Notes under the pieces: generated by a model
The model's input: only the letters and a program-made list of their open reading frames with translations
Database searches by the model: none
What the model was told of the DNA's origin: nothing
Translations under genes and position numbers: made by a program
Source of the DNA: Strigamia acuminata
Taxonomy: Eukaryota; Arthropoda; Chilopoda; Geophilomorpha; Linotaeniidae
Assembly (NCBI GenBank): GCA_949358305.1
Contig: OX442314.1
Location: forward strand, 62,381,369 to 62,445,368
DNA length: 64,000 nucleotides
Direction of reading: 5' to 3'
Shown here: piece by piece, positions 1-59,266 of the stretch
Numbering within the stretch: position 1 is the first letter of the stretch
Layout of the letters: each line of letters opens with the position of its first letter

Positions 1-627
1 TGCAAAACTTGTAACAAACCGGGACACACGTCTGCCAACTGCCGTGTCCGTGTCCGTGCTGCGAAGTCGAAAAACGCAGCGCAAGAAATTCGAAAACCGA
101 GCGATCCGAAGAATATTACGTGCTATAACTGCAAAAAACGGGGCCATATCAGCAGCGATTGCAAGGAAAACTGCGGGATCTGCAAGAAGCCGGGCCATAT
201 TTCGAGAGACTGCTCGATTCGACACGAAAAAATGGCCAAGAAAACCAAAGCGCCCACAGAAAAGCGACGACGAGATGAAACGAAACAGATTGACGAAACG
301 AAACCGGTCGACGAAACGAAACCGGTTGACGAAACGAAACCGGTTGACGAAACGACTGTCATGGAACAAATCGCCCCTGTTGCCACTGCTGCTTCCGTCT
401 CAAAAACTATCGTCCCGGACAGGTACAGCGATTTGACCGTGGAGGAATACGAAGCATATTGCGCGGAGCAAAATAGATTATGTTTTGGCGATACGGACAG
501 CGAGGACAGCGAGGGGGAGAACGAAATGGACTTTGAAGAGCAGACGAAACGAACCAGGGACGACAGCGATGATGATTTCACGGTTGTGAAAAACAAGAAA
601 TCGCGGATAAAGGAACGACGATCCTGA
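1..627 (+). CDS. ORF1 nucleic-acid-binding protein, C-terminal part (element A)
   Basis: Open from the first base of the window to a TGA at 625-627, 208 residues visible. The visible part starts at the third CCHC knuckle (CKTCNKPGHTSANC) and contains the fourth (CYNCKKRGHISSDC) and fifth (CGICKKPGHISRDC), then a Lys/Arg-rich stretch, the DETKPVD repeat region and an acidic tail with DSDDDFTVV followed by a basic end. It matches the C-terminal half of the complete ORF1 copies further right; no stop or frameshift is present. The N-terminal 190 or so residues lie outside the window. Confidence 0.88.
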   Translation, partial: CKTCNKPGHTSANCRVRVRAAKSKNAAQEIRKPSDPKNITCYNCKKRGHISSDCKENCGICKKPGHISRDCSIRHEKMAKKTKAPTEKRRRDETKQIDETKPVDETKPVDETKPVDETTVMEQIAPVATAASVSKTIVPDRYSDLTVEEYEAYCAEQNRLCFGDTDSEDSEGENEMDFEEQTKRTRDDSDDDFTVVKNKKSRIKERRS

Positions 628-869
628 TCCTGCCGCAAGAAAAACTTGACAAAAATACGGTTTTGTTCTTAATTGACAATTGATTAACTTTTATTGTTCG
701 TTTACTTATTTATTATAATGTATTATTATTATCGTAACTCTTGTATAATATGCATCTATACGTGATGGGTGCTCGATTATTGTGAATTTTTAATTATGTA
801 ACCAATTGGTGTGCACTTGTACTCCTTTTTTAGTCGGATAGAAATAAAATGGCCCTAAGGGTATTAAGC
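1..869 (+). mobile_element. Short U2-inserted non-LTR element A (5' part outside window)
   Basis: The 3' portion of an ORF1-only retrotransposon; the window starts inside its ORF1. It ends with the family tail TAAGC at 869, directly followed by the U2 target sequence taagctgataagaacag (870-886). Sequence after the ORF1 stop is the 242-bp short-element 3' UTR with AATAAA near its end and no trace of an endonuclease/reverse transcriptase reading frame. Carries the three-copy form of the 18-bp ETKPVD repeat. Its 5' junction is not visible, so its total length is inferred from the other copies (about 2.05 kb). Confidence 0.9.
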
Positions 870-926
870 TAAGCTGATAAGAACAGATACTACACTTTGA
901 TCTTAGCCAAAAGGCCGAGAAGCGAT
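870..926 (-). pseudogene. U2: U2 snRNA 5' fragment (nt 1-57), split by element A
   Basis: U2 nt 1-57 including the 5' end, stem I and the intact GUAGUA branch-point recognition sequence. The gene is broken after nt 57 by element A; 870-886 is the 3' copy of the 17-bp target duplication. Promoter-side flank (plus-strand right) is unchanged, so this fragment may still be transcribed into antisense element sequence (inference). Confidence 0.92.
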
Positions 927-4227: not shown

Positions 4228-4378
4228 GGAGTGGGCCGATCCTGGAGTTACTGCTATACCAGGCCAACCCGTGGCAGGGGTGGAGCAAGCTCCGAGCACC
4301 TCACCGCATTCCAAAAATCAGTTTAATATTCTGGGTCCTCAATGAGGACCGTATCAGATATTAAGCTGATAAGAACAG
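4228..4378 (-). pseudogene. U2: U2 snRNA 3' fragment (nt 41-191), split by element B
   Basis: Carries the Sm site and the stem III/IV region but no promoter or 5' end. 4362-4378 is the 5' copy of the target duplication taagctgataagaacag. Pairs with the 5' fragment at 6416-6472. Confidence 0.93.
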
Positions 4379-4982
4379 CCGCCAGGGAAGGTTGCATGCC
4401 AAGTGGCTCCTACCGTCGATCCCGTTTTTGAGACCTTTATGCACGATTTTTGGATTTTCCTGCAGTAAATACAGCGTATACATGTGCATTCGACCTTTGC
4501 ACGTGGTTTTTGGCAAGTTTTCCGTAAGTTTTTGGCAGTTTTTTGACTTTTTTGCGATCGCCGAAACACGTGGCGACGATCGCCGATCTTCCGTCTTCGA
4601 TTCCGAGATTTCTAACGGTCCGTTTGCTGTGTTCTTTACACGAAACTGACCGCCAGCACCTACTCTACAAGTGGGTATTGGTTTCGGAACCGGGAGAAGT
4701 CTTTTTTCGCCGTTTTCGCGACTTTTTGTGACCGCCGAAACACGTGGCGACGATCGCCGAATTCCCGTTATCGGTTTTTCGGCAACTACAGGCCGTAGAT
4801 AGGTCGAATTGGTGTGTTCTTGGCACCAAATTGTGCGCCAGAACCTCCTCTGTCGATCTCTATTGGTTTCCGGTTCAACCGGAATCGTTTTTCGGTCGAA
4901 TTTTTCGTTTTTCGTCCAATTCACGATCGGCGAATACACGCGGTATTGATATACGTCGCCCAGACGTTTTTCTTTCGTGCCG
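4379..4982 (+). promoter_or_regulatory. 5' UTR with duplicated 175-bp monomer (element B)
   Basis: Two direct, diverged copies of a roughly 175-bp unit start at 4545 and 4720. Each begins gacttttt, soon followed by CCGAAACACGTGGCGACGAT, containing the palindrome CACGTG (4567-4572 and 4741-4746). The full-length elements have only one such unit (CACGTG at 26812 and 54239). The same pair occurs at equal offsets in the other short elements (monomer starts 11840/12015, 15661/15836, 22978/23153, 35468/35643, 39272/39447, 44839/45014, 48642/48817). Because the element lies antisense to U2, it should need its own promoter, and monomeric 5' UTR promoters are known for rodent L1; promoter function here is inference. 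Confidence 0.6.
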
Positions 4983-6173
4983 ATGGATAGAATTATCGAT
5001 TGCAGACTTGATGCTGGCTTAACACCCATACATCTACTAGAAGCTCTTCTTAAAAAGCTAGGAAGACACACGGAAGATGGAGAACCCACGATCAAAGGGA
5101 TTCAATGTGTCGGTGGTTTAAAATTCGAAGCTTTGCTGACCAGTCAGGAACTGGTCGACCAACTAGCTGATTCCAGCGGTGCTACGGTCGACGGTTTGCG
5201 AATTTTGTGGGCACCACGAATTCGTCGTGACAAACGTGTTATTATTAAAGGACTTTCGATGACGGTTCCACTGACCGAGGTGGATTACGAAATGCGCAAG
5301 TTGGGCAGTGTAACGTCCGTAGCGTACGAGAAGTTCGAAAACCATGAGTCGATTATCAATGGAAACATCATCGTGATGATTACCAGCGACAATTTGCCTA
5401 GCAAAATCGTAATTGGGGATTTTTCTGGCCACCTTATCTACAAGGGCATGGGCCCCTACTGCCCCAAGTGCGACACGACGAACCACTACGCATCGGTGTG
5501 CCCGAAAACGAAATGTTATAACTGTAATGAGTTTGGCCATGTAAGCAGATTTTGCACGACCGATTGCAAAACTTGTAACAAACCGGGACACACGTCTGCC
5601 AACTGCCGTGTCCGTGTCCGTGCTGCGAAGTCGAAAAACGCAGCGCAAGAAATTCGAAAACCGAGCGATCCGAAGAATATTACGTGCTATAACTGCAAAA
5701 AACGGGGCCATATCAGCAGCGATTGCAAGGAAAACTGCGGGATCTGCAAGAAGCCGGGCCATATTTCGAGAGACTGCTCGATTCGACACGAAAAAATGGC
5801 CAAGAAAACCAAAGCGCCCACAGAAAAGCGACGACGAGATGAAACGAAACAGATTGACGAAACGAAACCGGTCGACGAAACGAAACCGGTCGACGTAACG
5901 ACTGTCATGGAACAAATCGCCCCTGTTGCCACTGCTGCTTCCGTCTCAAAAACTATCGTCCCGGACAGGTACAGCGACTTGACCGTGGAGGATTACGAAG
6001 CATATTGCGCGGAGCAAAATAGATTATGTTTTGGCGATACGGACAGCGAGGACAGCGAGGGGGAGAACGAAATGGACTTTGAAGAGCAGACGAAACGAAC
6101 CAGGGACGACAGCGATGATGATTTCACGGTTGTGAAAAACAAGAAATCGCGGATAAAGGAACGACGATCCTGA
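4983..6173 (+). CDS. ORF1 protein, five CCHC zinc knuckles (element B, 396 aa)
   Basis: Nucleic-acid-binding ORF1 (Gag-like) protein of a non-LTR element, expected to package element RNA. Residues 1-150 are a conserved N-terminal region with VIIKGLSMTVPL and GNIIVMIT segments, possibly an RRM-like fold (inference). Five knuckles of form C-X2-C-X4-H-X4-C follow at about residues 160-173, 178-191, 195-208, 235-248 and 252-265. Then a basic stretch, DETKPVD repeats (two KPVD copies here), and an acidic tail ending DSDDDFTVV plus a basic end. The ATG at 4983 was chosen because MDRIIDCRLDAGLTP aligns with MDMLVDCWIETGLTP at the start of ORF1 in element F; an earlier GTG gives two more residues but is unlikely in a eukaryote. 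Intact, with no ORF2 behind it. Confidence 0.9.
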   Translation: MDRIIDCRLDAGLTPIHLLEALLKKLGRHTEDGEPTIKGIQCVGGLKFEALLTSQELVDQLADSSGATVDGLRILWAPRIRRDKRVIIKGLSMTVPLTEVDYEMRKLGSVTSVAYEKFENHESIINGNIIVMITSDNLPSKIVIGDFSGHLIYKGMGPYCPKCDTTNHYASVCPKTKCYNCNEFGHVSRFCTTDCKTCNKPGHTSANCRVRVRAAKSKNAAQEIRKPSDPKNITCYNCKKRGHISSDCKENCGICKKPGHISRDCSIRHEKMAKKTKAPTEKRRRDETKQIDETKPVDETKPVDVTTVMEQIAPVATAASVSKTIVPDRYSDLTVEDYEAYCAEQNRLCFGDTDSEDSEGENEMDFEEQTKRTRDDSDDDFTVVKNKKSRIKERRS

Positions 6174-6353
6174 TCCTGCCGCAAGAAAAACTTGACAAAA
6201 ATACGGTTTTGTTCTTAATTGACAATTGATTAACTTTTATTGTTCGTTTACTTATTTATTATAATGTATTATTATTATCGTAACTCTTGTATAATATGCA
6301 TCTATACGTGATGGGTGCTCGATTATTGTGAATTTTTAATTATGTAACCAATT

Positions 6354-6415
6354 GGTGTGCACTTGTACTCCTTTTTTAGTCGGATAGAAATAAAATGGCC
6401 CTAAGGGTATTAAGC
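6354..6415 (+). promoter_or_regulatory. Conserved 3' terminal region (candidate RT recognition site), element B
   Basis: Starts ggtgtgcacttgtactcc, followed by a T-run, AATAAA (6389-6394), a CCCT-A-AGGG hairpin and the tail TATTAAGC. The full-length element ends the same way (31714-31786): same 18-nt block, T-run, AATAAA, a CCC-TATTAC-GGG hairpin and TAAGC. It is the best-conserved noncoding stretch between the two forms, as expected if ORF2 RT recognises it to start target-primed reverse transcription. Confidence 0.6.
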
Positions 6416-6472
6416 TAAGCTGATAAGAACAGATACTACACTTTGATCTTAGCCAAAAGGCCGAGAAGCGAT
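6416..6472 (-). pseudogene. U2: U2 snRNA 5' fragment (nt 1-57), split by element B
   Basis: Consensus U2 nt 1-57 with the 3' target-duplication copy at 6416-6432. Broken by element B. Confidence 0.93.
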
Positions 6473-8030
6473 ACCTATCTAGCTGTCTCCAACTCAGCCA
6501 GTCTACAAGCTAGCGCAAGTCGCAACGGTGTGTCATCCTTCTCAGCTAATTGTCATTTCACAATCATCATCACATTTCAAACTCTATCAGCTAAACTTCC
6601 TACTTGTTCATATTCTTCATGTCTTTTTTGAGGCTAATTTTATTCAACTTGACTTGAATCTTTGTTGGTTTGTCTCATTTGGAGAAAAAAGGAACTTATG
6701 GCGCAATGTCATCAAACCGGAGCACCACCTGGCGGATCCCGAGTGCTTTAATGGATGCCAAAATGTTCGTTCGGCCCGATGCGTTTGTATCATGATTTCG
6801 GCATTAGAAAGAGGTCGAGAAATTCTGCAACCAGGCTCATTCGATTGGAAATTGCATTCCACACAAGCCTGTATGTTTTTCTACTTGATTTCATCGAGGA
6901 AAGATTCCGTTTCGGGCGATCGAAGCCGGCGACCGCATGGCAAATTTCGTGCTGGCAAATTTAATTTCAATTCGACCCTAAAAACAAAAAAAAATGAAAA
7001 ATGAACGGTTTAAAATATTTAAAAAATGTTTCCTGTGCAGAATTTGCCTCTCTTTCTAATGGTGCCAATAACTTTTTGATCTGTGCTACAGTTTTTTTTT
7101 TTTTTTTTTTTTATTTTTGAAAAAACGATAACTGTCATTTGCCAAAGAAGGAATGAAATAAATCAACAAAATTTGTGAGAAATTGTGGGAAATTGTTGTT
7201 TAATGTTTCAAAAATTTGTCTACCTTAATAATTAGCATTGTCTAAAATGGATGAGTGTACACATTGCCCCATAACTGGTCTGGTCTGGTCTAAATATGAC
7301 CCACGCTGCATTCCTATATCAAAATTGCAATTATTTATCAGATAATTAAATAAATTAATAAAAATTCATCACAATTCACTGAGAAATTCATCAAAAGCCA
7401 TCTAAATCCATCTAAATCCATCAAAAGCCATCGAAATCCATCGAAATCCATCGAAATCTATCTAAATCCATCTAAATCCATCAAAAGCCATCGAAATTCA
7501 CCAAGAAATCATCAAAATTCACGAGAATTTCAACAAATTTCAAGAAAATTCCGACACCTACCATCAAAAGTTGATGAAAATCCATCTAATCCCATCAAAT
7601 GCCATCGAAATTCACCAAGAAATCTTCAAAATTCACGAAAATTGATCAAAATTTCAAGGAAATTCACGAAAATTGATCAAAATTTCAAGGAAATTCTGAC
7701 ACACCATCAAAAGTTGATGAAAATTTGGACAAAAATTTCATCAAAATCAATTTTAGAAATAGCATAGAGCCAGCCACATTTCAATTCAATTCATACAAAC
7801 AGAATTAAACAAAACAAAATAGCTGGAGCTGCTCACCTGACCAGCTCAGCTCAGCTCAGCTCACGGAATGGCACAGTCCTGCCAGCTCACTCCACCTTGT
7901 ATAACCACATGCATATATATACCCAGTACATACTACATGTAGACCAATACCCTAGTGTTATATAATAGCCTTTTTGTACCTCATTTCTAATTTTGTATTA
8001 TTATTATTATTATTATATGATTCTCCCGAA
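6473..8030. repeat. U2 array spacer (1558 bp)
   Basis: Same content as the unit-1 spacer; T-run of 21 followed by ATTTTTG (the T21/G variant). No gene recognised. Confidence 0.9.
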
Positions 8031-8221
8031 GGAGTGGGCCGATCCTGGAGTTACTGCTATACCAGGCCAACCCGTGGCAGGGGTGGAGCAAGCTCCGAGC
8101 ACCTCACCGCATTCCAAAAATCAGTTTAATATTCTGGGTCCTCAATGAGGACCGTATCAGATATTAAGCTGATAAGAACAGATACTACACTTTGATCTTA
8201 GCCAAAAGGCCGAGAAGCGAT
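8031..8221 (-). ncRNA. U2: U2 spliceosomal snRNA, uninterrupted copy 2
   Basis: Full 191-nt U2 with consensus 5' end, GUAGUA, Sm site and stem III/IV region; target site for the element is empty. Probably functional. Confidence 0.95.
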
Positions 8222-11673: not shown

Positions 11674-13728
11674 CCGCCAGGGAAGGTTGCATGCCAAGTG
11701 GCTCCTACCGTCGATCCCGTTTTTGAGACCTTTATGCACGATTTTTGGATTTTCCTGCAGTAAATACAGCGTATACATGTGCATTCGACCTTTGCACGTG
11801 GTTTTTGGCAAGTTTTCCGTAAGTTTTTGGCAGTTTTTTGACTTTTTTGCGATCGCCGAAACACGTGGCGACGATCGCCGATCTTCCGTCTTCGATTCCG
11901 AGATTTCTAACGGTCCGTTTGCTGTGTTCTTTACACGAAACTGACCGCCAGCACCTCCTCTACAAGTGGGTATTGGTTTCGGAACCGGGAGAAGTCTTTT
12001 TTCGCCGTTTTCGCGACTTTTTGTGACCGCCGAAACACGTGGCGACGATCGCCGAATTCCCGTTATCGGTTTTTCGGCAACTACAGGCCGTAGATAGGTC
12101 GAATTGGTGTGTTCTTGGCACCAAATTGTGCGCCAGAACCTCCTCTGTCGATCTCTATTGGTTTCCGGTTCAACCGGAATCGTTTTTCGGTCGAATTTTT
12201 CGTTTTTCGTCCGATTCGCGATCGGCGAATACACGCGGTATTGATATACGTCGCCCAGACGTTTTTCTTTCGTGCCGATGGATAGAATTATCGATTGCAG
12301 ACTTGATGCTGGCTTAACACCCATACATCTACTAGAAGCTCTTCTTAAAAAGCTAGGAAGACACACGGAAGATGGAGAACCCACGATCAAAGGGATTCAA
12401 TGTGTCGGTGGTTTAAAATTCGAAGCTTTGCTGACCAGTCAGGAACTGGTCGACCAACTAGCTGATTCCAGCGGTGCTACGGTCGACGGTTTGCGAATTT
12501 TGTGGGCACCACGAATTCGTCGTGACAAACGTGTTATTATTAAAGGACTTTCGATGACGGTTCCACTGACCGAGGTGGATTACGAAATGCGCAAGTTGGG
12601 CAGTGTAACGTCCGTAGCGTACGAGAAGTTCGAAAACCATGAGTCGATTATCAATGGAAACATCATCGTGATGATTACCAGCGACAATTTGCCTAGCAAA
12701 ATCGTAATTGGGGATTTTTCTGGCCACCTTATCTACAAGGGCATGGGCCCCTACTGCCCCAAGTGCGACACGACGAACCACTACGCATCGGTGTGCCCGA
12801 AAACGAAATGTTATAACTGTAATGAGTTTGGCCATGTAAGCAGATTTTGCACGACCGATTGCAAAACTTGTAACAAACCGGGACACACGTCTGCCAACTG
12901 CCGTGTCCGTGTCCGTGCTGCGAAGTCGAAAAACGCAGCGCAAGAAATTCGAAAACCGAGCGATCCGAAGAATATTACGTGCTATAACTGCAAAAAACGG
13001 GGCCATATCAGCAGCGATTGCAAGGAAAACTGCGGGATCTGCAAGAAGCCGGGCCATATTTCGAGAGACTGCTCGATTCGACACGAAAAAATGGCCAAGA
13101 AAACCAAAGCGCCCACAGAAAAGCGACGACGAGATGAAACGAAACAGATTGACGAAACGAAACCGGTCGACGAAACGAAACCGGTTGACGAAACGAAACC
13201 GGTTGACGAAACGACTGTCATGGAACAAATCGCCCCTGTTGCCACTGCTGCTTCCGTCTCAAAAACTATCGTCCCGGACAGGTACAGCGATTTGACCGTG
13301 GAGGAATACGAAGCATATTGCGCGGAGCAAAATAGATTATGTTTTGGCGATACGGACAGCGAGGACAGCGAGGGGGAGAACGAAATGGACTTTGAAGAGC
13401 AGACGAAACGAACCAGGGACGACAGCGATGATGATTTCACGGTTGTGAAAAACAAGAAATCGCGGATAAAGGAACGACGATCCTGATCCTGCCGCAAGAA
13501 AAACTTGACAAAAATACGGTTTTGTTCTTAATTGACAATTGATTAACTTTTATTGTTCGTTTACTTATTTATTATAATGTATTATTATTATCGTAACTCT
13601 TGTATAATATGCATCTATACGTGATGGGTGCTCGATTATTGTGAATTTTTAATTATGTAACCAATTGGTGTGCACTTGTACTCCTTTTTTAGTCGAATAG
13701 AAATAAAATGGCCCTAAGGGTATTAAGC
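11674..13728 (+). mobile_element. Short U2-specific non-LTR element C (ORF1 only, 2055 bp)
   Basis: Complete, flanked by the 17-bp duplication (11657-11673, 13729-13745). Same layout as element B, with the three-copy KPVD form of ORF1 and a 3' UTR reading cgaatag where most copies read cggatag. Shares these markers with element E, so the two descend from one copy by array duplication or conversion. No ORF2. Confidence 0.93.
12278..13486 (+). CDS. ORF1 protein, five CCHC zinc knuckles (element C, 402 aa)
   Basis: Intact ORF1 with the same N-terminal region, five CCHC knuckles and acidic tail as element B. It is six residues longer owing to one extra 18-bp DETKPV unit. The variant has VIIKG, PLTEV and TTNH at the diagnostic positions and EEYEAY near the C terminus (element B has EDYEAY). 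Start chosen at the ATG aligned with the full-length ORF1; a GTG lies two codons upstream. Confidence 0.9.
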   Translation: MDRIIDCRLDAGLTPIHLLEALLKKLGRHTEDGEPTIKGIQCVGGLKFEALLTSQELVDQLADSSGATVDGLRILWAPRIRRDKRVIIKGLSMTVPLTEVDYEMRKLGSVTSVAYEKFENHESIINGNIIVMITSDNLPSKIVIGDFSGHLIYKGMGPYCPKCDTTNHYASVCPKTKCYNCNEFGHVSRFCTTDCKTCNKPGHTSANCRVRVRAAKSKNAAQEIRKPSDPKNITCYNCKKRGHISSDCKENCGICKKPGHISRDCSIRHEKMAKKTKAPTEKRRRDETKQIDETKPVDETKPVDETKPVDETTVMEQIAPVATAASVSKTIVPDRYSDLTVEEYEAYCAEQNRLCFGDTDSEDSEGENEMDFEEQTKRTRDDSDDDFTVVKNKKSRIKERRS

Positions 13729-13785
13729 TAAGCTGATAAGAACAGATACTACACTTTGATCTTAGCCAAAAGGCCGAGAAGCGAT
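13729..13785 (-). pseudogene. U2: U2 snRNA 5' fragment (nt 1-57), split by element C
   Basis: Consensus U2 nt 1-57, broken by element C. Confidence 0.93.
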
Positions 13786-27052: not shown

Positions 27053-28204
27053 ATGGATATGCTGGTCGATTGTTGGATTGAAACGGGGCTAACACCCCTG
27101 AATCTTCTCGATGAATTATGGAAAAGACTGGGGAAAAACACGGAAAATGGAGACCCCACAGTTAAAACCATCCAACACGTGTTGGGTGGAAAATATGTGG
27201 CTTTTTTGCAAAACACCAGTCTGGTTGACCAACTGGCCGTTTTCAAGGGAGCCACCGTGGATGGACTAAAGATCACCTGGGACCCAAAGATTCGTCGAGA
27301 AAAACGGGTGATTATCAAGGGAATGTCACCTCTTGTGCCACTTGAGAAGATCGAATCCGAAATGAACAAATTGGGCAACGTTTCGTCGGTGACATACGAG
27401 AGATTCTTCGGCCTGGAACAGGTCAACAACGGAAATATCATCGTGATGATTAACGGGGACAATTTGCCAAGTAAACTCGAGGTTGGGCCCTTCTCCGGCC
27501 ACCTAATTTACAAGGGCATGGGGCCATACTGCCCCAAATGCGACGTAACGGACCATTACGCTTCGGTTTGCCCCAAAACGAAGTGCTACAACTGCAACGA
27601 ATTCGGCCACGTCAGCAGATCTTGCACCGCTAAGTGCAAAACGTGTGACAAGGCGGGGCACACGTCCGCCAACTGTCGTATCCGGGCGGCGAACGCGAAG
27701 AAAACGACGAACGCAACGCAAGAAAAGAGAGGACGACCAAACGATCCAAACAAGCCGCCGAACTGTTACAACTGCGGGAAACGTGGCCACATCAGCAGCG
27801 ATTGCACCGAAAATTGCAAGATCTGCAAAGAACCGGGACATGTCTCGAGAGACTGTCCAATTCGTAAGGAAAAAATCGCAAAGAAAACCGAGACAACCAG
27901 CGCACGTGTCGAAAACGAAAAACGAGACGAAACGGAACCGATTAAGAAGAAAACTGCCGTGGAACAAATCGTTACTGTCACCACTACGGCACTCGATTCG
28001 AAACAGAACCAAGAATCCGAAATGGACGTCGAGGAACAGTTGAAACGGTCGAGAGAAGAGACGGACAGCGACGACGACGGTTTCACCACGGTGACATACA
28101 AGCAAACGGGCGTACAAGATTTATCGAAACCGAGACAGAAAAGCCACTCGAAGAAGAAGAGAGGAAACGATTCTGCTGCGATGGGGGAAGAAATTCCCAA
28201 GTAG
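27053..28204 (+). CDS. ORF1 protein, five CCHC zinc knuckles (element F, 383 aa)
   Basis: ORF1 of the full-length element. The N-terminal region (MDMLVDCWIETGLTP, RVIIKGMSPLVPLEKI, GNIIVMING) precedes five C-X2-C-X4-H-X4-C knuckles (CPKCDVTDHYASVC, CYNCNEFGHVSRSC, CKTCDKAGHTSANC, CYNCGKRGHISSDC, CKICKEPGHVSRDC). A basic region follows, then an acidic segment with ETDSDDDGFTTVTYK and a Lys/Ser-rich end. It lacks the ETKPVD repeats of the short elements. Expected to bind element RNA and form the RNP. The TAG at 28202 is followed eight codons later by an in-frame TAA (28226), and ORF2 continues in the same frame. An in-frame TGA in the 5' UTR upstream of 27053 supports this ATG. Confidence 0.92.
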   Translation: MDMLVDCWIETGLTPLNLLDELWKRLGKNTENGDPTVKTIQHVLGGKYVAFLQNTSLVDQLAVFKGATVDGLKITWDPKIRREKRVIIKGMSPLVPLEKIESEMNKLGNVSSVTYERFFGLEQVNNGNIIVMINGDNLPSKLEVGPFSGHLIYKGMGPYCPKCDVTDHYASVCPKTKCYNCNEFGHVSRSCTAKCKTCDKAGHTSANCRIRAANAKKTTNATQEKRGRPNDPNKPPNCYNCGKRGHISSDCTENCKICKEPGHVSRDCPIRKEKIAKKTETTSARVENEKRDETEPIKKKTAVEQIVTVTTTALDSKQNQESEMDVEEQLKRSREETDSDDDGFTTVTYKQTGVQDLSKPRQKSHSKKKRGNDSAAMGEEIPK

Positions 28205-28228: not shown

Positions 28229-31200
28229 ACTTTTTGCGACACACGCACCGTTAGAACAAACCCCAAAACAGAAGAATTTGTTTTTAAAGCAGTTACGTAC
28301 AATGTACGCTCACTTCAAGGAAATACAAGACAAATCGAATTGCTAAACTGGATGAGGACGAATCCAGTCGACATAGTGTTTCTGCAAGAAACTCACGTGA
28401 CCGACGAACTGCAAGTGCGATCGATCGAGCAAAATACTCCCGGCTTCAAGTGGCATTGGTGCTGCAACGTAGACGGCAGCGGAGGACTTGGAATTGGGTT
28501 TAAAAAATCGAAATTTACCAAAAGCAGCGTGCAGCACGAATGCAACAACCGAATCATGGTTTGGGACTGCGTTTGTGGCGACACTGCACTCCGATTAATC
28601 AACGCGTACGCACCGGTGGACATTACGAAAATCGAGGATTTCTACGACGAGCTTACCGTGTGCACAGACACCAACCGAAACGTGATTATCGGCGGCGACT
28701 TGAACACGGACTTCGAATCGACCTCGAGGCGACACGCAAAATCGAAAAAACGACTCGAGAAACTGATGAACGACAAAAACCTGATCGATGCGTGGCTTGC
28801 TGACGGTGGAAAGGGAGTACAACACTCCTTTAAGTGGCAGACCACGACCTCAAGACTCGACTACTGGCTAATGGAGAATAATGGGCGACTCCAGATCAAG
28901 GATTGCGCGATCGATGACGATTCGTTCTCGGATCACAATCCAGTCTTTTGCGCGCTTGGAGTCATCTCTAGAAAGAAAATCAAATCATTTTGGAAACTGA
29001 ACACCGACCTGCTTGATGACCAGCGTTTTTGTGAGCGCTTTGCACAGAAATGGGAAGACTGGATTGACAAGCTGCCGCTGGAACCGCGAAGCTGGGAAAC
29101 GATTAAGCGACGAATTAAACGATTTTGCACGACCGCATCGATCACAGCGTTCAAGAAGGCGAAGGAAAACCGGGAAAAATTGATTTGGATGCGAGATATT
29201 TTGAAGAGGTCGAACCAGGACTCTTTTAAAAGCGACATCGAGGAAATTTCACGCCGTTTGAAAGAGTTGAACGTGATTACGCAACGAGGAAACGCCATTT
29301 TCGCCGTAATCGAGGAGCGCGAGTTTCTAGACAGCGTTGGCGACGATGCGAAGAGAAAGAAAGAAGCGGCAAATTCGAAACGGGACATTGGTAATGTGTC
29401 TGTGAATGGCACAGTGATTTCCGACGAGGCCGCAATTCGTACCGCATTCATCGACTTCTACAACGAAAAATTCGGGCGAGTGGACGTAAACAAAGCCACC
29501 TGGACGAAATTTCACGGGAAATCGGATTCTGGCGACGTTTATTCGAACCTGGATGACGCCTTCACCGTGAAGGAAATCACAGATACGATTGGCAGCTTGA
29601 GCAACAACCGCAGCCCAGGAATTGATGGAATTCCGGCCGAGTTTTACAAGAAATTCCGGGGACTCATTGCCCCTTATCTCTGTGCGTTGTGGAACACCAG
29701 CACGACGCTGACCAACTCCCAGAGGTCGGGCGTGATAACTCTGATCCCGAAAATCGAAAATCCGAGAGTGTGCAACGACTGGCGACCGATCTCGCTGCTG
29801 TGCACCGACTACAAGATTTACACGAAAGTTTTAAACTCCCGACTTCGATCGCTGATCCAGGAAAAAATCGAGTGCGGACAGTTCGGGGGCGTGAAGGGAA
29901 AACGAATTTCGGATGCGCAGATTCTCCTTGCATCGACTTGGAACCGGGGAATTTTAACCAACTCGTCCCTGGCGCTGCTCGCACTGGACCAACGTGAAGC
30001 GTACGACCGCGTCCACTGGGAATATTTGTGGAAGTCGTGCAAGGCGATCGGATTCACCGACCAGTTCCTCGAGCGCATCAAACAGTGCTACCGCGACATC
30101 ACCTCGAAAATCAATATCAACGGGACTTTGACTGAAAACATCGAAGTTTCCAGAGGTGTACGACAGGGTTGCCCGCTCTCGATGACCCTGTACACCGTGT
30201 ACATCGACACACTTCAGAAACGCATCCAGAACGACGAGAAAATCACGGGCGTTCGATTACAGGGCACGGAAATCAAGTCCACGGCGTTCGTTGACGACTT
30301 GACGCTCACGATCACCGACCCGAACTCGTTGGAGGCGATCCGTAACGTTTTTGGCGAGTTTAGAGACGCGACCGGCAGCGACCTAAACTTGGCCAAGAGC
30401 AAGGGACTCACGATTGGACCGGCGTGGACCGAGGACCACAAGAGGATGTTCCCGATCAACTGGAACGAGACTTCGGTTAAGATTTTGGGGATCGAGTTCG
30501 GCTACAATATGAAACGAGTTGGAAAACGAGCGTGGCGACTACTGGCGATCGAGTTGACCGCTACACTCAACGAATGGCGCGATAGGAATATGTCTTTTGT
30601 GCAGAAGGTGAGTTTTATCAAGCAGTACGTCCTGTGCAAAGTAAAATTCCTGGCCAGCGTGCATCTCCCAAGCCAGAAATGGATGAAAGAGATGCAATCG
30701 AAACTGGTCAGGTTTGTATGGGGCGGAAAGGTGAATAGACTCCCTTTTGCCGGGACTTACCTGTGCGCCAGGAAGGAGGAAGGGGGCATCGGTCTGCCTC
30801 AGATCAAGACGTTGATCATGGCGTACGTCACCGAGCTGGCCGTGCGTAAAGTCAAGATGGAGAATCGAACCGAAAACTGGTCGGTGTACGTCACGCTGTA
30901 TCTCGGCTACCACTGGCGGAAACTGGACCCTGAAATGGCAAGCATCAAGTTTGTACATTCCGAGACACGCGACACCTGGTTCGACTTTATCTACAAGACT
31001 TCGACCACTCACCTTACTGAATTTCCCGACGAATGGCGCGAGCTAGACGGAAACGGATGGTACTGGTGGTTCTACGCGAAAACGAACATCGCCGACCGGA
31101 ACATTCGCGACTACTCGAGGGGAACGAACTGGAATCTTCTCTGGCGCAATTTGTGGTCTGCAAACATGCAGAACACAGTTTGGAAGATTTGCCAGAACGG

Positions 31201-31621
31201 AGTCCTATGTAGAGACCGTCTGTTCAAGATGAAGCTCCGGGACTCAGACTCGTGCCAGCGATGTGCCGCAACCGAAAACGCCAAACACGTGATCTGGGAT
31301 TGTCCGTATGCGCAGCGGATTTGGCTCGATCTGGCCAGCCTTTTTGATGCCAAGGACCTCGTATACGACAACGTGACTTTTAAAATACCCCCGAACATCG
31401 ACGCGACAAAAAGGAGATTTTGGAATTTCCTGAACGGTCTGGTGATTCATTATTTATGGAGAGCCAGATGCGAGATCCACCGAGGAAACAATTGGGATAA
31501 GTCTCAATTTTTTATTGTAATCTGGGCGGTTGCCAAAACAAACTTGGAAGCCGTACGAAAACGAAACGAGGACGCATGGATCGAGCTAATGAAGAGCGGG
31601 CGAGGAATCATCGACAATTAA
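28229..31621 (+). CDS. ORF2 polyprotein: APE endonuclease, reverse transcriptase, C-terminal CCHC (element F)
   Basis: Catalyses target-primed reverse transcription. Open from 28229, after a TAA, to 31621 (1130 codons). APE motifs: TYNVRSL (about residue 24), FLQETH (about 52), IIGGDLNTDF (about 155), SRLDYWL, and catalytic SDHNPVF (234). RT motifs: RSPGIDGIPAEFYK, LIPKIENP...WRPISLL, motif A LALDQREAYD (Asp 587), motif B RGVRQGCPLS (about 642), motif C AFVDDLTL (Asp 689-690), then VKILGIEFG. C-terminal knuckle CQRC-X7-H-X4-C starts near residue 1009. The start is unresolved: the first in-frame ATG (28352) lies after the APE Asn motif TYNVRSL, so a non-AUG start, reinitiation or recoding is needed. 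The frame is the same as ORF1. Coordinates give the whole open frame; the true N terminus is probably within 28229-28297. Confidence 0.9.
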   Translation, partial: TFCDTRTVRTNPKTEEFVFKAVTYNVRSLQGNTRQIELLNWMRTNPVDIVFLQETHVTDELQVRSIEQNTPGFKWHWCCNVDGSGGLGIGFKKSKFTKSSVQHECNNRIMVWDCVCGDTALRLINAYAPVDITKIEDFYDELTVCTDTNRNVIIGGDLNTDFESTSRRHAKSKKRLEKLMNDKNLIDAWLADGGKGVQHSFKWQTTTSRLDYWLMENNGRLQIKDCAIDDDSFSDHNPVFCALGVISRKKIKSFWKLNTDLLDDQRFCERFAQKWEDWIDKLPLEPRSWETIKRRIKRFCTTASITAFKKAKENREKLIWMRDILKRSNQDSFKSDIEEISRRLKELNVITQRGNAIFAVIEEREFLDSVGDDAKRKKEAANSKRDIGNVSVNGTVISDEAAIRTAFIDFYNEKFGRVDVNKATWTKFHGKSDSGDVYSNLDDAFTVKEITDTIGSLSNNRSPGIDGIPAEFYKKFRGLIAPYLCALWNTSTTLTNSQRSGVITLIPKIENPRVCNDWRPISLLCTDYKIYTKVLNSRLRSLIQEKIECGQFGGVKGKRISDAQILLASTWNRGILTNSSLALLALDQREAYDRVHWEYLWKSCKAIGFTDQFLERIKQCYRDITSKININGTLTENIEVSRGVRQGCPLSMTLYTVYIDTLQKRIQNDEKITGVRLQGTEIKSTAFVDDLTLTITDPNSLEAIRNVFGEFRDATGSDLNLAKSKGLTIGPAWTEDHKRMFPINWNETSVKILGIEFGYNMKRVGKRAWRLLAIELTATLNEWRDRNMSFVQKVSFIKQYVLCKVKFLASVHLPSQKWMKEMQSKLVRFVWGGKVNRLPFAGTYLCARKEEGGIGLPQIKTLIMAYVTELAVRKVKMENRTENWSVYVTLYLGYHWRKLDPEMASIKFVHSETRDTWFDFIYKTSTTHLTEFPDEWRELDGNGWYWWFYAKTNIADRNIRDYSRGTNWNLLWRNLWSANMQNTVWKICQNGVLCRDRLFKMKLRDSDSCQRCAATENAKHVIWDCPYAQRIWLDLASLFDAKDLVYDNVTFKIPPNIDATKRRFWNFLNGLVIHYLWRARCEIHRGNNWDKSQFFIVIWAVAKTNLEAVRKRNEDAWIELMKSGRGIIDN

Positions 31622-53888: not shown

Positions 53889-54060
53889 GGAGTGGGCCGA
53901 TCCTGGAGTTACTGCTATACCAGGCCAACCCGTGGCAGGGGTGGAGCAAGCTCCGAGCACCTCACCGCATTCCAAAAATCAGTTTAATATTCTGGGTCCT
54001 CAATGAGGACCGTATCAGATATCAGATATCAGATATCAGATATTAAGCTGATAAGAACAG
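53889..54060 (-). pseudogene. U2: U2 snRNA 3' fragment with 21-bp expansion, split by element K
   Basis: Promoterless 3' part of U2 (nt 41-191) enlarged to 172 bp: the stem IIa sequence atcagat occurs four times in tandem (54014-54041) instead of once. 54044-54060 is the 5' target-duplication copy. Pairs with 59210-59266. Confidence 0.93.
54014..54041. repeat. (ATCAGAT)4 tandem repeat inside interrupted U2
   Basis: Four perfect 7-bp units where the other copies have one. Starts 30 bp left of the target duplication of element K. Confidence 0.95.
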
Positions 54061-54479
54061 GACAGGTCACACGTGGTTGCTCCTGTGTTTTTCCTGTTTT
54101 TTCAGAAATTCCGGCTAAAATCCTGGGATTTTCTGCGGTGAAACTGTCGGTATATGTACCTTGTACCATCCCACGTCGTTTTCCGAATCAAAATCGCGTT
54201 ATTTTTTGAAATTTTCGACTTTTTTACGAATTCCGCAACACGTGGCGACGATCGTCGCATTTTCGTTTTCGGTTTTTCGTCGTTTCCGGGCCAACGAACG
54301 GTCCATTTGCTGTGTTCTTGGCACCAAATTGTGCGCCAAGACTTCGTCTACAAGACTGTGTAGGTTTTGTGGATACTTACAATCGTTTTCGGGCCGAAAT
54401 TTCGACTTTTTCGTCCGTTCGCGATCGGCGCGATCTCGTAGAATCGGCAGACGTCGCCCTGACGTTTTCCTTCGAAGCC
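54061..54479 (+). promoter_or_regulatory. 5' UTR with a single monomer (element K)
   Basis: Same structure as in element F; CACGTG at 54239-54244. Lacks the in-frame TGA that F has just upstream of ORF1, so the ORF1 frame is open back to about 54312, but no upstream ATG in that stretch is conserved. Confidence 0.5.
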
Positions 54480-55625
54480 ATGGATCTGCTGGTCGATTGT
54501 TGGATTGAAACGGGGCTAACACCCCTGAATCTTCTCGATGAATTGTGGAAAAGACTGGGGAAAAACACGGAAAATGGAGACCCCACAGTCAAAACCATCC
54601 AACACGTGTTGGGTGGAAAATATCTGGCTTTTTTGCAAAACACCAGTCTGGTTGACCAACTGGCCGTTTTCAAAGGAACCACCGTAGATGGGCTGAAGAT
54701 CACCTGGGACCCAAAGATTCGTCGAGAAAAACGTGTGATTATCAAGGGAATGTCACCTCTTGTGCCACTTGAGAAGATCGAATCCGAAATGAACAAATTG
54801 GGCAACGTTTCGTCTGTGACATACGAGAAATTCTTCGAACAGGTCAACAACGGAAATATCATCGTGATGATTAACGGGGACAATTTGCCAAGTAAACTCG
54901 AGGTTGGGCCCTTCTCCGGCCACCTAATTTACAAGGGCATGGGGCCATACTGCCCCAAATGCGACGTAACGGACCATTACGCTTCAGTGTGCCCCAAAAC
55001 AAAGTGTTTTAACTGCAACGAATTCGGCCACGTCAGCCGATCTTGCACCGCTAAGTGCAAAACGTGTGACAAGGCGGGGCACACGTCCGCCAACTGTCGT
55101 ATCCGGGCGGCAAACGCGAAGAAAACGACGAACGCAACGCAAGAAAAGAGAGGACGACCAAACGATCCAAACAAGCCGCCGAACTGTTACAACTGCGGGA
55201 AACGTGGCCACATCAGCAGCGATTGCACCGAGAATTGCAAGATCTGCAAAGAACCGGGACATGTCTCGAGAGACTGTCCAATTCGTAAGGAAAAAATCGC
55301 AAAGAAAACCGAGACAACCAGCGCACGTGTCGAAAACGAAAAACGAGACGAAACGGAACCGATTAAGAAGAAAACTGCCGTGGAACAAATCGTTACTGTC
55401 ACCACTACGGCACTCGATTCGAAACAGAACCAAGAATCCGAAATGGAGGTCGAGGAACAGTTGAAACGGTCGAGAGAAGAGACGGACAGCGACGACGACG
55501 GTTTCACCACGGTGACATACAAGCAAACGGGCGTACAAGATTTATCGAAACCGAGACAGAAAAGCCACTCGAAGAAGAAGAGAGGAAACGATTCTGCTGC
55601 GATGGGGGAAGAAATTCCCAAGTAG
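54480..55625 (+). CDS. ORF1 protein, five CCHC zinc knuckles (element K, 381 aa)
   Basis: ORF1 of the second full-length element, with the same N-terminal region and five CCHC knuckles as in F. Two residues shorter because ERFFGLEQV in F reads EKFFEQV here. One knuckle reads CFNCNEFGHVSRSC instead of CYNC. The ATG at 54480 (MDLLVDCWIETGL) is chosen by alignment with F and with the short elements, although the frame stays open for 56 more codons upstream. Followed by TAG (55623), an in-frame TAA (55647) and ORF2 in the same frame. Confidence 0.92.
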   Translation: MDLLVDCWIETGLTPLNLLDELWKRLGKNTENGDPTVKTIQHVLGGKYLAFLQNTSLVDQLAVFKGTTVDGLKITWDPKIRREKRVIIKGMSPLVPLEKIESEMNKLGNVSSVTYEKFFEQVNNGNIIVMINGDNLPSKLEVGPFSGHLIYKGMGPYCPKCDVTDHYASVCPKTKCFNCNEFGHVSRSCTAKCKTCDKAGHTSANCRIRAANAKKTTNATQEKRGRPNDPNKPPNCYNCGKRGHISSDCTENCKICKEPGHVSRDCPIRKEKIAKKTETTSARVENEKRDETEPIKKKTAVEQIVTVTTTALDSKQNQESEMEVEEQLKRSREETDSDDDGFTTVTYKQTGVQDLSKPRQKSHSKKKRGNDSAAMGEEIPK

Positions 55626-55649
55626 TTTGACAAAAACGATTTTTGTTAA

Positions 55650-58600
55650 ACTTTTTGCGACACACGCACCGTTAGAACAAACCCCAAAACAGAAGAATTT
55701 GTTTTTAAAGCAGTTACGTACAATGTACGCTCACTTCAAGGAAATACAAGACAAATCGAATTGCTAAACTGGATGAGGACGAATCCAGTCGACATAGTGT
55801 TTCTGCAAGAAACTCACGTGACCGACGAACTGCAAGTGCGATCGATCGAGCAAAATACTCCCGGCTTCAAGTGGCATTGGTGCTGCAACGTAGACGGCAG
55901 CGGAGGACTTGGAATTGGGTTTAAAGAATCGAAATTTACCAAAAGCAGCGTGCAGCACGAATGCAACAACCGAATCATGGTTTGGGACTGCGTTTGCGGC
56001 GACACTGCACTCCGATTAATCAACGCGTACGCACCGGTGGACATTACGAAAATCGAGGACTTCTACGACAAGCTTACCGTGTGCACAGACACCAACCGAA
56101 ACGTGATTATCGGCGGCGACTTGAACACGGACTTCGAATCGACCTCGAGGCGACACGCAAAATCGAAAAAACGACTCGAGAAACTGATGAACGACAAAAA
56201 CCTGATCGATGCGTGGCTTGCTGACGGTGGAAAGGGAGTACAACACTCCTTTAAGTGGCAGACCACGACCTCAAGACTCGACTACTGGCTAATGGAGAAT
56301 AATGGGCGTCTCCAGATCAAGGATTGCGCGATCGATGACGATTCGTTCTCGGATCACAATCCAGTCTTTTGCGCGCTTGGAGTCATCTCTAGAAAGAAAA
56401 TCAAATCGTTTTGGAAACTGAACACCGACCTGCTTGATGACCAGCGTTTTTGTGAGCGCTTTGCACAGAAATGGGAAGACTGGATTGACAAGCTGCCGCT
56501 GGAACCGCGAAGCTGGGAAACGATTAAGCGACGAATTAAACGATTTTGCACGACCGCATCGATCACAGCGTTCAAGAAGGCGAAGGAAAACCGGGAAAAA
56601 TTGATTTGGATGCGAGATATTTTGAAGAGGTCGAACCAGGACTCTTTTAAAAGCGACATCGAGGAAATTTCACGCCGTTTGAAAGAGTTGAACGTGACTA
56701 CGCAACGAGGAAACGCCATTTTCGCCGTAATCGAGGAGCGCGATTTTCTAGACAGCGTTGGCGACGATGCGAAGAGAAAGAAAGAAGCGGCAAATTCGAA
56801 ACGGGACATTGGTAATGTGTCTGTGAATGGCACAGTGATTTCCGACGAGGCCGCAATTCGTACCGCATTCATCGACTTCTACAACGAAAAATTCGGGCGA
56901 GTGGACGTAAACAAAGCCACCTGGACGAAATTTCACGGGAAATCGGATTCTGGCGACGTTTATTCGAACCTGGATGACGCCTTCACCGTGAAGGAAATCA
57001 CAGATACGATTGGCAGCTTGAGCAACAACCGCAGCCCAGGAATTGATGGAATTCCGGCCGAGTTTTACAAGAAATTCCGGGGACTCATTGCCCCTTATCT
57101 CTGTGCGTTGTGGAACACCAGCACGACGCTGACCAACTCCCAGAGGTCGGGCGTGATAACTCTGATCCCGAAAATCGAAAATCCGAGAGTGTGCAACGAC
57201 TGGCGACCGATCTCGCTGCTGTGCACCGACTACAAGATTTACACGAAAGTTTTAAACTCCCGACTTCGATCGCTGATCCAGGAAAAAATCGAGTGCGGAC
57301 AGTTCGGGGGCGTGAAGGGAAAACGAATTTCGGATGCGCAGATTCTCCTTGCATCGACTTGGAACCGGGGAATTTTAACCAACTCGTCCCTGGCGCTGCT
57401 CGCACTGGACCAACGTGAAGCGTACGACCGCGTCCACTGGGAATATTTGTGGAAGTCGTGCAAGGCGATCGGATTCACCGACCAGTTCCTCGAGCGCATC
57501 AAACAGTGCTACCGCGACATCACCTCGAAAATCAATATCAACGGGACTTTGACTGAAAACATCGAAGTTTCCAGAGGTGTACGACAGGGTTGCCCGCTCT
57601 CGATGACCCTGTACACCGTGTACATCGACACACTTCAGAAACGCATCCAGAACGACGAGAAAATCACGGGCGTTCGATTACAGGGCACGGAAATCAAGTC
57701 CACGGCGTTCGTTGACGACTTGACGCTCACGATCACCGACCCGAACTCGTTGGAGGCGATCCGTAACGTTTTTGGCGAGTTTAGAGACGCGACCGGCAGC
57801 GACCTAAACTTGGCCAAGAGCAAGGGACTCACGATTGGACCGGCGTGGACCGAGGACCACAAGAGGATGTTCCCGATCAACTGGAACGAGACTTCGGTTA
57901 AGATTTTGGGGATCGAGTTCGGCTACAATATGAAACGAGTTGGAAAACGAGCGTGGCGACTACTGGCGATCGAGTTGACCGCTACACTCAACGAATGGCG
58001 CGATAGGAATATGTCTTTTGTGCAGAAGGTGAGTTTTATCAAGCAGTACGTCCTGTGCAAAGTAAAATTCCTGGCCAGCGTGCATCTCCCAAGCCAGAAA
58101 TGGATGAAAGAGATGCAATCGAAACTGGTCAGGTTTGTATGGGGCGGAAAGGTGAATAGACTCCCTTTTGCCGGGACTTACCTGTGCGCCAGGAAGGAGG
58201 AAGGGGGCATCGGTCTGCCTCAGATCAAGACGTTGATCATGGCGTACGTCACCGAGCTGGCCGTGCGTAAAGTCAAGATGGAGAATCGAACCGAAAACTG
58301 GTCGGTGTACGTCACGCTGTATCTCGGCTACCACTGGCGGAAACTGGACCCTGAAATGGCAAGCATCAGGTTTGTACATTCCGAGACACGCGACACCTGG
58401 TTCGACTTTATCTACAAGACTTCGACCACTCACCTTACTGAATTTCCCGACGAATGGCGCGAGCTAGACGGAAACGGATGGTACTGGTGGTTCTACGCGA
58501 AAACGAACATCGCCGACCGGAACATTCGCGACTACTCGAGGGGAACGAACTGGAATCTTCTCTGGCGCAATTTGTGGTCTGCAAACATGCAGAACACAGT

Positions 58601-59042
58601 TTGGAAGATTTGCCAGAACGGAGTCCTATGTAGAGACCGTCTGTTCAAGATGAAGCTCCGGGACTCAGACTCGTGCCAGCGATGTGCCGCAACCGAAAAC
58701 GCCAAACACGTGATCTGGGATTGTCCGTATGCGCAGCGGATTTGGCTCGATCTGGCCAGCCTTTTTGATGCCAAGGACCTCGTATACGACAACGTGACTT
58801 TTAAAATACCCCCGAACATCGACGCGACAAAAAGGAGATTTTGGAATTTCCTGAACGGTCTGGTGATTCATTATTTATGGAGAGCCAGATGCGAGATCCA
58901 CCGAGGAAACAATTGGGATAAGTCTCAATTTTTTATTGTAATCTGGGCGGTTGCCAAAACAAACTTGGAAGCCGTACGAAAACGAAACGAGGACGCATGG
59001 ATCGAGCTAATGAAGAGCGGGCGAGGAATCATCGACAATTAA
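55650..59042 (+). CDS. ORF2 polyprotein: APE endonuclease, reverse transcriptase, C-terminal CCHC (element K)
   Basis: Same domain order and length as ORF2 of element F. APE motifs include TYNVRSL, FLQETH, IIGGDLNTDF, SRLDYWL and SDHNPVF. RT motifs include LALDQREAYD (A), RGVRQGCPLS (B) and AFVDDLTL (C), and a C-terminal CQRC-X7-H-X4-C knuckle is present. Differences from F lie outside these motifs. All catalytic residues I can identify are present and there is no stop or frameshift. As in F, no in-frame ATG precedes the first APE motif (the first is at 55773), and the frame equals that of ORF1; coordinates give the whole open frame from the preceding TAA. Confidence 0.9.
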   Translation, partial: TFCDTRTVRTNPKTEEFVFKAVTYNVRSLQGNTRQIELLNWMRTNPVDIVFLQETHVTDELQVRSIEQNTPGFKWHWCCNVDGSGGLGIGFKESKFTKSSVQHECNNRIMVWDCVCGDTALRLINAYAPVDITKIEDFYDKLTVCTDTNRNVIIGGDLNTDFESTSRRHAKSKKRLEKLMNDKNLIDAWLADGGKGVQHSFKWQTTTSRLDYWLMENNGRLQIKDCAIDDDSFSDHNPVFCALGVISRKKIKSFWKLNTDLLDDQRFCERFAQKWEDWIDKLPLEPRSWETIKRRIKRFCTTASITAFKKAKENREKLIWMRDILKRSNQDSFKSDIEEISRRLKELNVTTQRGNAIFAVIEERDFLDSVGDDAKRKKEAANSKRDIGNVSVNGTVISDEAAIRTAFIDFYNEKFGRVDVNKATWTKFHGKSDSGDVYSNLDDAFTVKEITDTIGSLSNNRSPGIDGIPAEFYKKFRGLIAPYLCALWNTSTTLTNSQRSGVITLIPKIENPRVCNDWRPISLLCTDYKIYTKVLNSRLRSLIQEKIECGQFGGVKGKRISDAQILLASTWNRGILTNSSLALLALDQREAYDRVHWEYLWKSCKAIGFTDQFLERIKQCYRDITSKININGTLTENIEVSRGVRQGCPLSMTLYTVYIDTLQKRIQNDEKITGVRLQGTEIKSTAFVDDLTLTITDPNSLEAIRNVFGEFRDATGSDLNLAKSKGLTIGPAWTEDHKRMFPINWNETSVKILGIEFGYNMKRVGKRAWRLLAIELTATLNEWRDRNMSFVQKVSFIKQYVLCKVKFLASVHLPSQKWMKEMQSKLVRFVWGGKVNRLPFAGTYLCARKEEGGIGLPQIKTLIMAYVTELAVRKVKMENRTENWSVYVTLYLGYHWRKLDPEMASIRFVHSETRDTWFDFIYKTSTTHLTEFPDEWRELDGNGWYWWFYAKTNIADRNIRDYSRGTNWNLLWRNLWSANMQNTVWKICQNGVLCRDRLFKMKLRDSDSCQRCAATENAKHVIWDCPYAQRIWLDLASLFDAKDLVYDNVTFKIPPNIDATKRRFWNFLNGLVIHYLWRARCEIHRGNNWDKSQFFIVIWAVAKTNLEAVRKRNEDAWIELMKSGRGIIDN

Positions 59043-59134
59043 CTCTTAATTGTTTGCCTTATTTATTACGAAAACTGTACATATTTTTCTACTGATTGTT
59101 ATTTTATTATTGAAATTGAAAAAAAAAAAAACTA

Positions 59135-59209
59135 GGTGTGCACTTGTACTCCTTTTTTTTTTTAGCTTTTGGAAACGGAAATAAACAAACCCTATTACGG
59201 GCTCTAAGC
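59135..59209 (+). promoter_or_regulatory. Conserved 3' terminal region (candidate RT recognition site), element K
   Basis: Same as in F except for a slightly longer T-run: ggtgtgcacttgtactcc, T-run, AATAAA, CCC-TATTAC-GGG hairpin, TAAGC. Confidence 0.6.
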
Positions 59210-59266
59210 TAAGCTGATAAGAACAGATACTACACTTTGATCTTAGCCAAAAGGCCGAGAAGCGAT
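59210..59266 (-). pseudogene. U2: U2 snRNA 5' fragment (nt 1-57), split by element K
   Basis: Consensus U2 nt 1-57, broken by full-length element K. Confidence 0.93.

Follow-up and report, generated by a model that had tools for sequence, protein, structure and literature searches.

How does an element that encodes neither an endonuclease (EN) nor a reverse transcriptase (RT) come to outnumber, at one and the same target, the complete elements that encode both, and is the protein that it still encodes in use? This question is raised by a stretch of 64,000 nucleotides of Strigamia acuminata, hereafter the window, on contig C1 (OX442314.1, 62381369-62445368; genome 237.5 Mb, 157 contigs). U2 snRNA genes are arrayed in tandem throughout the window, in units of 1746-1749 bp with U2 on the minus strand; ten of these U2 genes are uninterrupted. 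Many units of the array carry plus-strand LINEs, antisense to U2, at a single target near U2 nt ~41-57, with U2 nt ~57-1, reverse-complemented, as their 3' flank. Two sorts of LINE share the site, full-length elements (types F, K and K') and a short one (S). Our count bears out the preliminary description, which had nine short copies against two full-length ones in the window; one of the nine is cut by the window edge. The features are as follows (window positions):

4379..6417, plus strand: short ORF1-only element, reference copy, with the 17-bp target duplication TAAGCTGATAAGAACAG on both sides
4362..4378, plus strand: left 17-bp target duplication (U2 gene, antisense)
6416..6432, plus strand: right 17-bp target duplication, overlapping the element end by 2 bp
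4379..4982, plus strand: 5' UTR of the reference S, with an internal tandem duplication, related to the F 5' UTR
4529-4602 with 4703-4776, and 4624-4666 with 4809-4851: tandem duplication pairs in the 5' UTR of the reference S
4983..6173, plus strand: ORF1 of the reference S, 396 aa
5460..5777, plus strand: five CCHC zinc knuckles (PF00098; aa 160-173, 178-191, 195-208, 235-248, 252-265)
6174..6417, plus strand: 3' UTR of the reference S, closely matching F/K over the last ~65 nt only
6353..6372, plus strand: 3' hairpin GG-U-GUGC-ACUU-GUAC-U-CC, common to F/K
1..871, plus strand: S running across the window edge, ORF1 402 aa, starting 1186 bases before the window
11674..13730, plus strand: S copy, ORF1 402 aa
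15495..17552, plus strand: S copy, ORF1 402 aa
22812..24868, plus strand: S copy, ORF1 402 aa
35302..37341, plus strand: S copy, ORF1 396 aa
39106..41162, plus strand: S copy, ORF1 402 aa
44673..46711, plus strand: S copy, ORF1 396 aa
48476..50532, plus strand: S copy, ORF1 402 aa
26633..31788, plus strand: full-length F, ORF1 27053-28204, ORF2 (APE-type EN and RT) 28340-31621
54061..59211, plus strand: full-length K, ORF1 54480-55625, ORF2 55761-59042
8029..8221, minus strand: uninterrupted U2 snRNA gene (Rfam RF00004, 182.6 bits)

Dispersed U2 genes on contig C3 (2.9-7.6 Mb) score up to 189 bits versus 182.6 for the C1 array, so that the main source of U2 RNA may not be the C1 array. Two of these C3 genes differ from the array U2 at nine positions, all past nt 82, and have the same target site.

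The short element measures 2.04-2.06 kb versus ~5.15 kb for the full-length elements and consists of a 5' UTR, as had been described, of 604-605 nt, an ORF1 of 393-402 aa and a 3' region of 244 nt. Of the span first given to the reference copy, 4379-6415, the start holds and the end moves to 6417, with the target duplication overlapping the element end by 2 bp. The whole-genome search that the preliminary description had proposed yielded 26 complete S copies, one 384-bp fragment and nine full-length elements (best candidates scored). The best 42 of 102 candidates were scored for ORF2 and the best 105 of 674 in another search, and counts of relics are thus lower bounds; the reading of C1 left out 62495601-62503324, 62506725-62508862, 62512263-62523138, 62526539-62533600, 62544001-62548000, 62572001-62575000 and 62578501-62590000. 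ORF1 is open in all 26 complete copies, at 393, 396 or 402 aa, which extends to the genome the earlier statement that the short frames are free of stops and frameshifts. Its only detectable domain is zf-CCHC, and no EN or RT was found in S, again as described. Five CCHC knuckles had been assigned to all nine copies in the window; by pattern count they are present in eight of these and in 25 of the 26 genome-wide, the His of knuckle 1 being replaced by Gln in the copy at the left edge, at a point upstream of the window. The junctions are the same in all 26 complete copies, and the 17-bp duplication is perfect in 25 and has one mismatch in the remaining one. In the 384-bp fragment (62482585-62482968), target and S meet with a 2-base overlap and the left duplication is for the most part gone, which could result from a truncated insertion or from a deletion. 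The tandem duplication in the 5' UTR (~180 nt), which resembles the F 5' UTR, perhaps represents promoter repeats. No relatives of the S ORF1 were found in a large protein database at E<=0.001 (2652 candidates), and its predicted structure (mean pLDDT 48.9, pTM 0.26) gives no more than a hint of RRM-like domains, from the succession of strands and helices.

The full-length elements combine an ORF1 of 381-383 aa with an ORF2 of ~1093 aa that has an APE-type endonuclease (PF03372 and PF14529 in F), an RT and zf-RVT. Among solved structures the F/K ORF2 best matches that of L1, and among the 120 of 496 protein database matches listed it is mostly related to unnamed EN-RT proteins at 24-29% identity. 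ORF2 is uninterrupted in eight of the nine full-length elements (three F, three K, two K'; best 42 of 102 candidates) and broken in the ninth; K' is a type with 89% identity in ORF2 protein, and the copy at 62256209, with an uninterrupted ORF2, has an insert of ~0.8 kb between its ORFs. Judged by eye, the full-length copies carry the same 17-bp duplication as S. The three K copies are 99.98-100% identical apart from CAGATAT repeats, two of them having extra tandem CAGATAT repeats just before the 5' target duplication (window 54023-54043; C1 62340296-62340316), which reflects either separate insertions of the partner or a later change. At C1 62236940-62238039 (+) and 62535416-62534323 (-), F-type ORF1 relics are directly followed by another, different ORF1 N terminus (aa 1-86), as in nested or chimeric elements. 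Lacking EN and RT, S has to rely on enzymes supplied in trans. The probable lenders are F, K and K', as they hold the sole uninterrupted ORF2s of this family among the matches listed and use the same target.

A shared 3' end is part of this reading. The preliminary description had S keeping the full-length 3' terminus, which is correct for the last ~65 nt, the rest of the 3' UTR not matching closely. These include a 20-nt hairpin with 19 bases the same in S and F/K; in K' one base pair of it differs at both positions, and in a relic on contig C8 another differs at one. Covariation as proof of the hairpin was dropped, since across six sequences it showed no significant excess over shuffles (131/500 for cells paired, 113-178/500 for other measures). 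Likewise, folding the sequences singly gives no advantage over shuffles (z 0.81, -1.23 and -0.27), and the hairpin is present in the centroid fold of S and absent from its minimum-energy fold. The C8 relic is an S-type 3' UTR with 72% identity (locus L041, 3762838-3763005, minus strand); it borders a TGAATTCATTCC-type minisatellite, with no U2 gene beside it within the 4 kb read. Parts of the F 3' UTR are similar to it as well (81-84%), and the S and F 3' UTRs thus seem distantly related throughout. Further S-like 3' termini lie on the minus strand from 62555572, 62563378 and 62592986 (loci L029 and L030) at a U2-like site, AGCTGACAAGAACA, with ORF2 sequence of the full-length type after them. 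These three relics are suggestive of an S-like 3' end that was perhaps inserted at a pseudo-target in an ORF2 and duplicated since; the exact sequence AGCTGACAAGAACA is absent from present F and K', and recombination at a short match is an alternative origin. In two zebrafish LINEs, the ORF2 proteins are described as strictly recognising a 3' stem-loop (PMC4176376). In a human system, Alu RNA made by Pol II is reported to require ORF1p as well as ORF2p (PMC2666806), which by analogy would give a long parasite RNA a reason to carry its own ORF1.

That the ORF1 of S is open says little on its own, because 3.7% of random changes make a stop and fewer than one stop is expected from 14 changes. The use of the protein was judged from a codon model that let dN/dS differ between classes (own script), covering the first 281 alignable codons of 11 of the 17 aligned sequences; S_393, Kp256, rE541, rF237, rH577 and K296 were left out, as was the C-terminal tail, which is absent from the relics. 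Estimated dN/dS was 0.11 on the S stem (2dlnL 34.1 against 1), 0.19 in the S crown (2dlnL 5.2, p 0.023), 0.185 in F/K/K' and 0.62 in the T-type relics introduced below. With other classes, S stem and crown jointly gave 0.10 (2dlnL 21.7), and the very short T stem 4.4, a meaningless value. Crown sites in 25 copies comprise eight synonymous and six non-synonymous ones where 74% non-synonymous are expected (p 0.012). The p value rises to 0.028 without one site in a repeat-rich stretch, and without two such sites the count is 6 vs 6 (p 0.06 one-sided, 0.09 two-sided). Simple counts within S thus give a dN/dS of 0.26-0.34, with p 0.012-0.09 depending on these two sites. The indels among S copies are of 18 and 9 nt inside ORF1 and of 1 nt in the 5' UTR. 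The earlier proposal had made dN/dS along the short lineage its check, and the values are well below 1 rather than near it, so the S protein appears to be used, as expected of a protein-coding parasite: its ORF1 appears to be under purifying selection, with weaker evidence for the crown alone. The stem value covers a period when S may still have had an ORF2.

Taken together, we consider it likely that S is a non-autonomous, protein-coding LINE parasite, antisense in U2, that is copied via the ORF2 of F, K and K'. It would make its own five-knuckle RNA-binding protein, which would coat the RNA of S in cis. The ORF2 of F/K/K' would recognise the 3' tail that S has in common with them, and its endonuclease and RT would carry out target-primed reverse transcription of S at U2 genes. 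Copies would then be multiplied, lost and reshuffled as the array recombines.

An improbable alternative reduces all this to the last step: a single deleted copy that owes its whole spread to unequal crossing-over and gene conversion among U2 units, its ORF1 being intact because it is young. Such recombination is indeed heavy. The S copies (25 of the 26 complete ones counted) form 15 haplotypes that are mosaics, four-gamete violations affect 108 of 406 site pairs and 34 of 54 spacers between units are identical; 26 copies therefore do not amount to 26 insertions, and both their uniform junctions and the low expectation of stops fit a single origin. The mosaics can be ascribed to array recombination, template switching being an alternative source. 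Gene conversion from F/K was rejected as the origin of the polymorphism, as no block of S alleles matches F/K (13 sites, four haplotypes). On the other hand, the spacers vary far less than S does. The 22 copies with both flanks read fall into 10 flank classes; the largest holds ten copies that agree fully over 1.7 kb of flank on either side and include nine haplotypes with 23 segregating sites in the 2-kb element. Duplication of one insertion would carry flank differences along as well, so uniform flanks argue against plain duplication. New insertions from a varied pool would explain them, and alternatively conversion by many empty units could level the flanks alone. The crown dN/dS (0.19-0.34) and the S-type 3' ends next to non-U2 sequence also speak against a single insertion. 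Spread solely by array recombination, which would have overturned the preliminary description, is thus at odds with nine haplotypes on ten identical flanks and with diverged relics beside non-U2 sequence, while the heavy recombination itself is real.

Where the S ORF1 comes from bears on how long S has been a parasite. At the protein level it is 62-63% identical to the ORF1 of F, K and K' (66-68% in nucleotides), and the knuckle Cys and His residues are invariant across six aligned ORF1 sequences. We ruled out S as a deletion product of F, given an ORF1 just 63% identical and closer relics of its own. Three named relics on the array flanks, from 62595645, 62561886 and 62233472, are nearest to S in nucleotides (72-80% identical, versus 63-67% to F/K/K'), and other relics group with F, K and K'. 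The main splits in an unrooted ORF1 tree of 12 sequences are supported at 99-100; the grouping of S with its relics follows from the distances and the long branch to F/K/K'. At least three S-side relics are of a truncated form without EN-RT, and the relics that we call T lie on C1:

62560.4-62561.9 kb, minus strand: T relic
62576.4-62577.2 kb, minus strand: T relic
62233.5-62234.1 kb, plus strand: T relic
62556.2 kb, minus strand: T relic

Those at 62560 and 62233 kb have one exact ORF1/spacer/ORF2 junction in common, in which ORF1 extends ~30 codons past codon ~268-282 and is followed by a piece of F-like inter-ORF spacer and the last ~100 codons of ORF2. The order is the same at 62576 kb, with a deletion across the junction, and at 62556 kb the end of a T-type ORF1 adjoins ORF2 sequence that begins at ~codon 809, implying that the forebears of T had more of ORF2. 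The one T relic that is traceable further has an F-like 3' UTR. T is a second non-autonomous form, now extinct. S keeps the ORF1 C terminus that T lost and T keeps a part of ORF2 that S lost, so neither is a simple deletion of the other and their ancestor may well have been full-length.

It is quite possible, though somewhat short of an even chance, that S is fairly young and derives from a full-length element, now extinct, with an S-type ORF1, in which case the stem dN/dS would record the life of that element; this is compatible with S now being a parasite of F/K/K'. The parts of ORF2 kept by the four T relics, the lack of a simple deletion relationship between S and T, and S copies only ~1% apart in substitutions favour such an origin. 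Against it, an F/K/K'-type ORF1 precedes all eight uninterrupted ORF2s and the broken ninth (best candidates scored), and no S-clade ORF1 with EN-RT occurs among the relics that could be followed, which not all could. Moreover, what looks like one relic, 20% diverged, at 62595645 has an S-clade ORF1 and an S-type 3' UTR, with a foreign piece between them that by eye is Gypsy integrase-like and interrupts a relic that may once have had an ORF2, and the crown alone has a dN/dS of 0.19. We offer only tentatively the longer history, that the S-type ORF1 has belonged to an RT-less lineage since before the split from T. It would then be a long-lived protein-coding parasite in a U2-specific LINE family, constrained (dN/dS ~0.1) apart from every RT-bearing partner and twice yielding ORF2-dependent elements, S living and T dead. 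A different use of the protein seems very unlikely: the S ORF1 protein might influence F/K in trans, whether as a common helper or as an inhibitor in copy-number control, and be selected for that instead of for carrying the RNA of S. The excess of S over full-length elements (26 to 9, ~3 to 1) and the knuckle residues common to all would suit this role, but the ORF1 of F, K and K' is itself constrained, and these elements thus do not seem to depend on S.

As a parasite of F/K/K', S would offer a direct test, with its complete copies all in one readable array, of the reason for which a LINE parasite retains its RNA-binding protein while SINEs do without. Parasite and partner are found at the same target site, with the same 3' terminus and on the same chromosome, which makes trans-use of ORF2, cis-preference of ORF1 and competition for sites countable.

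Among known systems, Keno and Utopia are described as U2-targeting non-LTR elements that have U2 from nt 39 onwards as 3' flank, and the Keno endonuclease is of APE type (PMC4640811), a likeness to F, which has such an endonuclease in ORF2 and the same target gene. Keno and Utopia read as sense to U2, whereas F, K and S are antisense and duplicate U2 nt ~41-57, and the identification of F/K as Keno was rejected on this orientation. By clade, the RT of Keno belongs to Tx1. The main text of the paper on Keno and Utopia does not contain the words "nonautonomous" or "non-autonomous" (PMC4640811). A literature search of titles and abstract openings, with subscription papers and Repbase reports mostly outside it, found no ORF1-only U2 element, in line with the earlier remark that none was known. 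S has the features of an ORF1-only LINE, namely an intact ORF1 without EN or RT, a 3' end in common with an RT-bearing partner, and purifying selection. RT-less LINEs that encode ORF1 are already known in HAL1 and HeT-A, and S adds a case in a site-specific U2 element. HAL1 (half-L1) of mammals, the comparison first drawn for S, is likewise non-autonomous and encodes an ORF1, and it is dispersed in genomes. It derives from L1, whereas S is site-specific, with an ORF1 clade apart from the ORF1 of living full-length elements. The published account gives HAL1 ORF1p only and several independent origins (PMC5753468). The comparison is a fair one, and HeT-A of Drosophila telomeres, with its partners TART and TAHRE, is nearer to S, being target-restricted, RT-less and Gag/ORF1-encoding, which lessens the novelty of S. 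HeT-A is described as a target-restricted non-LTR element that encodes Gag and is without pol, TAHRE bears pol and a similar Gag, and the conservation of HeT-A gag suggests negative selection (PMC5537684). S is not attached to chromosome ends as HeT-A is: HeT-A extends these ends and serves its host, while S sits inside U2 genes with 17-bp duplications. A further difference is that the partner ORF2 of S is closest to that of L1 among solved structures and HeT-A belongs to the Jockey group.
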